Shown here piece after piece: positions 16,671 to 17,961 of a stretch of DNA of 64,000 bases (position 1 is its first letter; every line of letters starts with the position of its first letter). The position numbers and the translations under genes were made by a program. Under the pieces are notes generated by a model. It made no database searches. It was not told where the DNA came from and worked only from the letters and a program-made list of their open reading frames with translations. Origin of the DNA: Herbaspirillum sp. WKF16 (GTDB lineage Bacteria; Pseudomonadota; Gammaproteobacteria; Burkholderiales; Burkholderiaceae_D); contig NZ_CP118632.1 in the NCBI RefSeq assembly GCF_028993615.1, forward strand, positions 3,720,001 through 3,784,000, given 5' to 3'.

Positions 16671-16937
16671 ATGGCTAAGGAAGAACTGATTGAAATGCAA
16701 GGCCAGGTAACGGAAGTCCTGCCCGACTCCCGCTTCCGCGTCGACCTGGAAAACGGCCACTCCCTGATCGCCTATACCGCAGGGCGCATGAAGAAGAACT
16801 TCATCAAGATCCTGGCCGGCGACAAAGTGACCCTGGAACTCTCCCCGTACGACCTCAACAAGGGTCGCATCATCTACCGCCACATCGAAAACCGCGGCGG
16901 CACCGGCGCTCCCCGCACCCAGTTCCGTCGGCGCTAA
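16671..16937 (+). CDS. infA: Translation initiation factor IF-1, second-copy (InfA2) type
   Basis: An 88-residue IF-1 with the S1/OB fold: [20 protein letters not shown] at the start, an [10 protein letters not shown] strand, and [21 protein letters not shown] near residue 60. The basic tail ending in FRRR makes it longer than the canonical 72-residue IF-1 and matches the second copy found in Burkholderiales away from the ribosomal operon. A strong AAAGGAG site precedes ATG 16671. It faces cspA across a structured non-coding region. Confidence 0.93.
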
Positions 16938-17013: not shown

Positions 17014-17037
17014 AAAAAGCCCACCAAAAGGTGGGCT
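17014..17037 (-). terminator. Rho-independent terminator reading on the minus strand
   Basis: AGCCCACC pairs with GGTGGGCT around an AAAA loop (8 bp). On the minus strand it is followed by five U, on the plus strand only by GTTCATT, so it fits a transcript coming leftward from the hairpin array or cspA better than one from infA2. Confidence 0.75.
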
Positions 17038-17067
17038 GTTCATTGATTAATTCTGAATTCTCCGCAA

Positions 17068-17087
17068 CCCATGCTATCTGCATGGTG
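17068..17087. repeat. Array hairpin 1
   Basis: CCCATGC, loop TATCT, GCATGG, bulged T, G. Seven pairs in total. Confidence 0.7.
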
Positions 17088-17103
17088 CCGCAGCGTTGAA
17101 CGA

Positions 17104-17123
17104 CCCGTCCTATCCGGGCGGTG
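17104..17123. repeat. Array hairpin 2
   Basis: CCCGTCC, loop TATCC, GGGCGG, bulged T, G. Seven pairs including one T-G pair. Confidence 0.65.
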
Positions 17124-17224
17124 CCATTCCAATACAGTCGCTCGCCGATTCCGGCTGCCCTTGCGGGCCGCATGCCGGATAACGAAGCTTAATAAACTAT
17201 TTGCTTGGCCGGCTTCCCGCAGCG

Positions 17225-17253
17225 CATGCCCGCGCTATCTGCGCGTTGGCATG
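17225..17253. repeat. Array hairpin 3
   Basis: CATGCCCGCGC, loop TATCT, GCGCG, bulged TT, GGCATG. Eleven pairs, the strongest of the four. Confidence 0.7.
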
Positions 17254-17296
17254 TGACGGTGAAGCGGGCCGGCGTCGCCATCGCGCCGACTCGATT

Positions 17297-17326
17297 GCCA
17301 GCCCCTGCTATCTGCAAGGTGCCGGC
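17297..17326. repeat. Array hairpin 4
   Basis: GCCAGCCCCTGC, loop TATCT, GCAAGG, bulged T, GCCGGC. Ten pairs with two mismatches. Confidence 0.6.
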
Positions 17327-17419
17327 CACAGATATCCGTAAATCGGAGCGGTGGAAACGCCGGGCCTGGCTGCCTGCCGCGTATGGACGGCGGGCAAGCT
17401 CAGGCTTGAAAGATGATGC

Positions 17420-17632
17420 TTAAGCGATCGGCTTGATGTTGGTCGCTTTTTCGCCCTTGGGGCCGACGCCGCGCTCGAACGACACGCGCTGGTTCTCGGA
17501 CAGGCTCTTGAAACCGGTGGACTGGATGTCCTGGAAGTGGGCGAACAGATCAGCGCCGCCGGCATCGGGGGTGATGAAACCGAAACCCTTTGCATCGTTG
17601 AACCACTTCACCACGCCAGTTTGGGTGCTCAT
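17420..17632 (-). CDS. Cold-shock protein, CspA family
   Basis: A 70-residue single cold-shock domain protein. Both nucleic acid-binding motifs are present: KGFGFI (RNP1) and DLFAHF (an RNP2 variant with Ala-His-Phe), after the [11 protein letters not shown] start. It binds single-stranded RNA and acts as an RNA chaperone. AAAGGAA precedes the ATG. A long upstream stretch could form a cold-responsive leader. Downstream on the same strand lies the four-hairpin array and a terminator, so the array may be part of its 3' untranslated region. Confidence 0.95.
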
Positions 17633-17961
17633 AATATTTCCTTTGATTGAATAGGGGCGTCATGCCCGAAAGGCACTTGAGACCAAGATAAAACCGAAGG
17701 AAAAAAGACAGAACGACCGGAGGGAGAACAACAGTCAGGCGGAATTGGAACCAACAAGAATACGGCTTGATGCAAGTACAACGAACACTATACCCGATCT
17801 TGGACGAATGCGCAAAGAAATGTGGTTTTCATGCACAAGCCCCCGTAACCGGCGTCCTCCCTGCGCATATTCATATGCAAAACCATTCCTTCGCCGCCCG
17901 CCCCGTCCGCGCTAGCGTCTTCCTGCCGCATCCCTTCAAACAGACGACAAGCGAGACGACC
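17633..17961. other. Divergent leader region of cspA and metY
   Basis: This 329-base gap lies between the divergent cspA and metY genes. The half next to cspA has a TGCC/GGCA hairpin and poly-pyrimidine stretches on the minus strand, consistent with a long cold-shock leader. I see no SAM riboswitch or clear operator for metY. Confidence 0.45.

Follow-up and report, generated by a model that had tools for sequence, protein, structure and literature searches.

A tandem hairpin module in the 3′ region of a Herbaspirillum cspA-type gene: probably an undescribed modular RNA family with putative protein-binding sites

We analysed a 64,000-nucleotide stretch of DNA from Herbaspirillum sp. WKF16 (hereafter the window), which is part of a 4.99 Mb single-contig genome. 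In this window, a cspA-type cold-shock gene and an infA-type gene face each other across a gap of 482 bases, and the minus strand of the gap, which is the csp strand, displays four hairpins followed by a terminator. The features are given below in the direction of csp transcription, with the scores of the hairpin modules taken from R2, a covariance model built from 75 copies of the module.

17633..17800, minus strand: csp promoter and leader region, of which a homologue is kept in relatives with the array but without a csp frame
17420..17632, minus strand: cspA-type cold-shock gene, 70 aa (open reading frame; Pfam CSD, E 1.5e-26), with the array in its 3′ region
17380..17388, minus strand: motif GTCCATACG, shortly 3′ of the csp stop, found by eye in intergenic sequences
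17295..17328, minus strand: module 4, first in the transcript, with a lower stem, a bulged A, a 6-pair upper stem and the loop AGATA (R2, 42.3 bits)
17225..17254, minus strand: module 3, with an AA bulge, a 5-pair upper stem and the loop AGATA, in an atypical register (R2, 25.2 bits)
17189..17205, minus strand: AU-rich element AGCAAATAGTTTATTAA, upstream of the last two hairpins, recurring in other csp loci
17098..17129, minus strand: module 2, with a bulged A, an upper stem containing one C.A mismatch and the loop GGATA (R2, 37.5 bits)
17062..17093, minus strand: module 1, the last, with a bulged A, a 6-pair upper stem and the loop AGATA (R2, 45.7 bits)
17014..17037, minus strand: intrinsic terminator after the array, an 8-pair stem (17018-17037) and then TTTT
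16671..16937, plus strand: infA-type gene (IF-1, 88 aa; Pfam eIF-1a, E 2.2e-24), convergent with cspA and outside the RNA

The csp promoter is a putative one, recognised by eye from a TATAGT hexamer, and the promoter scan lists none on the minus strand. The GTCCATACG motif takes the form (T)TCCATACG in relatives, where it is present in many csp loci (by eye). The terminator, which an earlier note on this DNA had described at the same position, was recovered by a scan for which 1.5 terminator-like sites are expected by chance in the same stretch, and it recurs in relatives.

The same note had placed four hairpins with a common loop in the gap, and all four are present where it put them, with minus-strand loops at 17309-17313, 17236-17240, 17111-17115 and 17075-17079. 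Three of these loops read AGATA and the one at 17111-17115 reads GGATA. Read on the minus strand, the unpaired T or TT noted on the plus strand becomes a bulged A in the 5′ arm of the stem, or AA for the copy at 17225. The stems pair as described in general, except that a single C.A mismatch interrupts the upper stem of the copy at 17104, while the copy at 17225 is a hairpin but has to be redrawn with a 5-pair upper stem and a two-base bulge. Within a 410-base context, the upper-stem pairs have probabilities of 0.8-1.0, the exceptions being the mismatch in copy 2 and position six in copy 3. On the minus strand, folding of the csp 3′ region is better than that of its shuffled versions (z -7.4), and the same is true, although less markedly, of an overlapping stretch on the plus strand (z -5.0).

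Scanning for the complete module, comprising a GAT loop, an upper stem, a 5′ bulge and a lower stem, returned four hits on the minus strand of the gap and none on its plus strand, while the same scan of the other 63518 bases of the window returned one on the plus strand and three on the minus strand. When the gap was dinucleotide-shuffled 2000 times, 1996 versions held no module, four held one, and none held two. Looser patterns are at chance level, with the nine-base pattern GCRGATAGC being uninformative (98 genome matches vs 89 for the reversed control) and a one-mismatch pattern giving 5 matches against 5.17 expected, so that only the full module exceeds chance.

Some of the uniformity among the collected rows is built in, as the first scan required the A bulge and the GAT loop and the named pattern used later fixed AGATA. 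With the bulge base and the loop letters left open, a free scan of 19 csp 3′ regions found 26 hairpins that have a five-base loop and a one-base 5′ bulge; 24 of these have a GAT loop, and the bulge is A in all 24, from which we conclude that the A bulge and GAT loop are real features rather than products of the search. The loops in the 75 copies used for R2 are AGATA (68), AGATG (3), GGATA (2), GGATG (1) and CGATA (1). At six csp loci, the counterpart of module 3 is without a simple A bulge.

Searching at the DNA level produced matches in 38 of 41 genomes, and we inspected the intergenic regions of 20 related loci (L031-L050) out of the many listed. A csp frame is present in 19 of the 20, and the comparison of the infA-csp gap that the earlier note had suggested finds at least one module within 900 bases downstream of it in 19/19. 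The module scan of these 19 csp loci yielded 34 hits, compared with none on the reverse strand and an average of 0.1 for the whole set after base shuffling; one of the 34, which lies in the window's gap outside the array, is probably spurious. A coding explanation was rejected by eye, as gap length and sequence vary freely among the relatives.

Two covariance models, R1 from 27 copies and R2 from 75 copies, were built and searched, as also suggested, with E-values that are rough and with stricter filters for searches over more than 40 genomes. R2 detected the module in 34/34 genomes of the genus, and in 103 of 195 genomes and 18 of 44 genera of the family. Among 399 genomes drawn from the order, R1 detected it in seven, all seven in the same family, and among 369 genomes drawn from the class R2 detected it in two, the window's own genome and one marginal match (E 6.8e-4). 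The module recurs across one bacterial family and is almost absent from the other genomes sampled. The own genome has five modules at two loci (R2, E < 0.05), and a scattered repeat of the REP/BIME type was rejected on this count, as many copies per genome would be expected of it.

A further scan used a named pattern, for which 80 of 120 stretches are listed; the csp and infA neighbour counts and the 85-copy pairing and strand counts given below all use these 80. Of the matches listed, 75 come from Herbaspirillum, Massilia, Duganella, Rugamonas, Pseudoduganella, Undibacterium, Noviherbaspirillum, Herminiimonas and Janthinobacterium, or from assemblies labelled Oxalobacteraceae, Burkholderiaceae or Betaproteobacteria. 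The remaining five are unrelated records, about chance level by our own estimate, and one of them, a Streptomyces contig, scores 33.4 bits with R1.

The covariation that the earlier note had seen among the stems is borne out in larger sets of copies. In two sets of copies that had been selected for pairing, changes on both sides occur in 9 of 12 pairs (27 copies from the genus) and in 12 of 14 pairs (75 diverse copies), and the covariation score was matched in 0/500 shuffles for each set; simply counting double-changed pairs is less informative, as this number was reached in 6/500 and 14/500 shuffles, respectively. The smaller set was taken from the 34 scan hits, leaving out the window's AA-bulge copy, the probably spurious gap hit and five identical or near-identical rows, and the larger set was picked by eye from 104 rows after removing rows at least 86% identical. 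A fairer test is provided by 85 distinct copies among the matches listed (80 of 120 stretches), where the pattern constrains neither the five outer nor the two middle pairs. Here, the outer pairs are formed in 342 of 425 cases (maximum 266 in 1000 re-pairings) and the middle pairs in 108 of 170 (maximum 91 in 1000 re-pairings), with statistics that ignore the kinship of the rows. The five unrelated records among the matches listed form 11/25 outer and 3/10 middle pairs. Covariation therefore also holds in copies picked regardless of the tested pairs, and chance palindromes are ruled out by the gap shuffles together with this pairing. We regard it as nearly certain that the RNA family is real.

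The types of mispair in these copies bear on which strand is functional. In the outer pairs of the 85 copies among the matches listed, A.C is depleted (18 vs 39-68 in re-pairings), whereas G.U is not (74 vs 68-104), which points to the module acting as an RNA of the csp-sense strand. This count supersedes a first strand count (G.U 125, A.C 38), for which the rows were preselected for pairing on that strand. A point against comes from one position in the middle of the upper stem, where C.A occurs in 48/85 copies (among the matches listed) and would read G.U on the opposite strand. Many extended copies have TT opposite CT at the level of this C.A. Pairing midway along the upper stem thus often departs from the canonical, which argues against a simple perfect helix and may be a recognition feature. 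A repeat acting at the DNA level, such as a palindrome of the REP or attC kind mobilised by a transposase or integrase, would suit the extended copies, which are long imperfect palindromes, and the tandem arrays; against it stand the outer-pair counts, the mere five copies in the own genome, and the finding that csp lies solely on the same strand among the matches listed, and we judge it most improbable.

The module is present on several types of carrier, each with 1 to 5 copies. Among the 80 loci of the matches listed, 29 have a csp gene of the same strand at most 700 bases upstream and 0 have one on the opposite strand, infA lies at most 450 bases downstream in 9, neither gene is found in 32, five are cut by the edge of the locus, and five are the unrelated records. 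The link to cold shock proposed by the earlier note thus stands for the 29 of the 80 listed with csp upstream, but not for the others, which lie before infA or thrS, after tRNA-Gly, or alone.

Predicted stand-alone RNAs, about 235-290 nt long, occur in Massilia, Duganella, Rugamonas and their kin, and comprise a TACACT-type -10 element, mostly with a TTGTGC-like -35 element (by eye), a core conserved among them, one or two modules and a terminator. The set comprises 28 of 30 references (two shorter ones being left out), and at 5/35 loci no start or end was found. Of ten loci inspected, five are downstream of a BrkB-type gene, a call made with Pfam Virul_fac_BrkB on one gene and by eye on the remaining ones, and others are upstream of infA. 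RNAalifold gave a patchy consensus for the 28 RNAs, with both-side changes in 12/41 pairs. Several small carriers (L288, L289, L290, L294 and L247) begin with a hairpin that has a U/C-rich loop (e.g. TTGCTCCTCCC in L294), and by eye these leader loops resemble an anti-Shine-Dalgarno stretch.

One alternative is a base-pairing small RNA, in which the AGAUA loops or the U/C-rich leader loops would be seeds for target messages and the hairpins would merely present them. The upstream hairpin with its anti-Shine-Dalgarno-like loop in L289, L294 and, less clearly, L288 (by eye) speaks for this explanation. However, a five-base loop makes a weak seed, base pairing would need neither the conserved bulge nor the closing pairs, and no U/C-rich leader loop was identified in the window's array; we consider base pairing unlikely.

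Extended single hairpins occur in Herbaspirillum, including one in the own genome (L064, 3332712-3332745). This is the fifth own-genome module; it is intergenic and, by eye, has a promoter-like TTGGCG..TAAAGT in front of it. In seven relatives, an extended hairpin lies 100-190 nt before a serine-acetyltransferase-like frame, so called from Pfam SATase_N at 20.9 bits on one frame, just below the cut-off of 21. Arrays of extended hairpins, with 2-4 modules by the strict pattern, are found upstream of a thrS-type gene in seven genomes (L281-L287), and L256 has a five-module array before a thrS-type gene, the first 83 residues of which match the TGS domain. Similar arrays of five and at least four modules are present in L249 and L250, respectively, with other genes behind them. 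Behind the array in L256:1-1501 and L281-L287, thrS shows another promoter-like site, its second, together with a short frame in which Thr codons abound (by eye), and in L256 this frame is followed by a terminator-like hairpin, having the look of a leader-peptide attenuator (by eye). In another genus, arrays of 3-4 modules lie behind a tRNA-Gly/Cys/Gly operon and before a terminator (L315-L317), and L318 and L322 of the same genus have single copies.

Some carriers have just one module, partly as a terminator-like long hairpin, and in L247, L288, L290, L292, L295 and L296 the long hairpin leads into a stretch of T. This position, and the frequent proximity of modules to terminators, would be expected of an mRNA stability or 3′-end element, in which the hairpins block 3′ exonucleases or guide RNase processing, with a ribonuclease or nothing as partner. 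A fixed A bulge and GAT loop, as found in 24/26 hairpins of the free scan, would not be needed in a general stabiliser, though, and the arrays of L281-L287 precede thrS, while the stand-alone RNAs have no message in need of protection. We therefore hold a stability element to be rather unlikely.

Two loci, L075 and L304, lack a csp frame but have the leader and the array. In G010, no csp frame was found in the stretch, and the leader motif is 143 bases from the 3′ motif, compared with 385; BLAST matches end in the leader and resume in the 3′ region, and infA lies on the far side, as in the window. G085, from another genus, has a stretch that shares 78.5% identity with a csp leader over 121 positions and continues into a five-module array, again with no csp frame. 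With the frame missing and the leader and array present, the RNA has been kept where the coding part is gone, and the array RNA seems to matter apart from CspA. That the array outlives the csp frame in two relatives also counts against a strict link to cold shock. Autoregulation of csp in cis, where CspA or temperature would act on the 3′ hairpins and tune csp expression, is consistent with csp being the commonest neighbour tallied (29 of 80 among the matches listed), but L075 and L304 keep the array without a csp frame and the module is also carried by RNAs without csp, making this quite improbable.

We compared the array with known RNA families. The earlier note had supposed that it might belong to a known tandem small RNA family, but with Rfam 15 nothing reached the gathering score in the window or in 20 related loci, and nothing reached it on the module in 10 related loci, so membership is unsupported and was rejected. 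The best of the below-threshold matches is a Trp leader over the terminator (26.4 of 41 bits). Three matches to RF02278, the Betaproteobacteria toxic small RNA, adjoin the module and none falls on it (L292:1232-1299, L295:1218-1285 and L296:1233-1300, each following a single AGATA hairpin of the same strand after about 330-370 bases). RF02278 thus occurs in the same bacteria and in a neighbouring position, but it has no match in the window, differs in sequence and structure, and is a neighbour only.

CsrA is the usual client of such hairpin arrays, and CsrB, CsrC, RsmY and RsmZ are sponges that titrate it through a GGA motif. Judged from sequence, the array shares with these RNAs several putative hairpin recognition units per RNA and an intrinsic terminator, but differs in having an AGAUA loop rather than the GGA motif, a bulged A, and a csp messenger as carrier. 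The loop starts with GGA in only 3/75 copies, and 23/26 free-scan loops start otherwise. CsrA was detected in 0/34 genomes of the genus by a search that was positive in E. coli, B. subtilis and T. maritima among 14 controls, and a CsrA sponge was rejected on both counts. A ProQ/FinO-domain protein was detected in 4/34 genomes of the genus and not in the window's genome (control positive in E. coli), and ProQ was rejected as a general partner, having no match in 30/34. The sponge or protein-binding array put forward by the earlier note therefore fits the anatomy, but its textbook client was not detected in this genus. In RNA-phage coat-protein operators and iron-responsive elements, a single base bulges from the 5′ arm some pairs beneath a short loop of conserved sequence. 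The bulge-loop layout of the module is similar, whereas loop, spacing and organisms differ, and the likeness is a structural analogy only.

In Herbaspirillum seropedicae, the cspA 5′ UTR has been described as a thermoregulator (RF01766; PMC7011215), and a report on small RNAs of the same species also includes the cspA 5′ UTR (PMC6337395). Like RF01766, the array is on the transcript of a cold-shock gene; unlike it, the array follows csp on the 3′ side, has no Rfam match at the gathering score and also occurs where csp is absent. The passages of these two papers that were consulted do not mention the module. The Burkholderiales-1 motif is a candidate RNA of the same order, entered in a table without an Rfam accession (PMC2864571). 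A word search of text from PMC11109978 found no Burkholder-, Janthinobacterium, Herminiimonas, cold shock, csp or tandem, and no description of the module was found in the open-access literature searched.

The module, the array, their conservation and covariation, the other carriers and the retention after loss of the csp frame can all be read from the sequences themselves, and together with the csp-terminator position and the promoter-like starts of the stand-alone relatives they lend good support to a repeated-module RNA on the leftward strand, as the earlier note had proposed. It is probably an undescribed modular RNA family with putative protein-binding sites. Variable unit number, a fixed bulge and loop, several carriers and persistence without csp are best read as binding sites for a partner, and we give a probability of about 0.5 to the array being a set of sites for a trans-acting partner, most likely a protein, with the RNA acting as a sponge or recruiting scaffold. 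The csp transcript would then be a messenger whose 3′ part has an additional, non-coding function and consists of four copies of a family-specific hairpin module ended by the intrinsic terminator. The array would be transcribed together with csp, and a smaller RNA might be released near the AU-rich element. Each module would be a recognition unit, such that the several copies in one RNA could each engage a molecule of a common partner, most likely a protein, which would be titrated or recruited in the manner of the CsrB/RsmZ sponges without the RNA being a member of that group; any response to cold is likewise conjectural. With five modules at two loci in the own genome, there is no sign of a set of messages sharing the hairpin, contrary to what a classical titration circuit would suggest.

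More tentatively, the Oxalobacteraceae may possess an undescribed post-transcriptional system in which one module is read by one putative RNA-binding protein, through single sites and 2-5-fold arrays located at the 3′ ends of csp, on small RNAs that stand alone, in front of thrS and in a tRNA-Gly operon trailer, and which stands in a genus where CsrA (0/34) and mostly ProQ (4/34) are missing. If the module is a binding site, it offers a ready bait for a new RNA-binding protein in a genus without detected CsrA and with ProQ rare. The csp case, if true, would be a messenger doubling as a regulatory array that is retained after the coding part is lost. The module also supplies a well-delimited RNA, open to experimental testing, in a plant-associated bacterial genus.

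The AU-rich element AGCAAATAGTTTATTAA between modules 3 and 2 is a possible candidate site for Hfq or RNase E. In the csp 3′ region of one relative (L042, genome G024), this element is interrupted by a palindromic insertion of ~269 bases that resembles a small mobile element.
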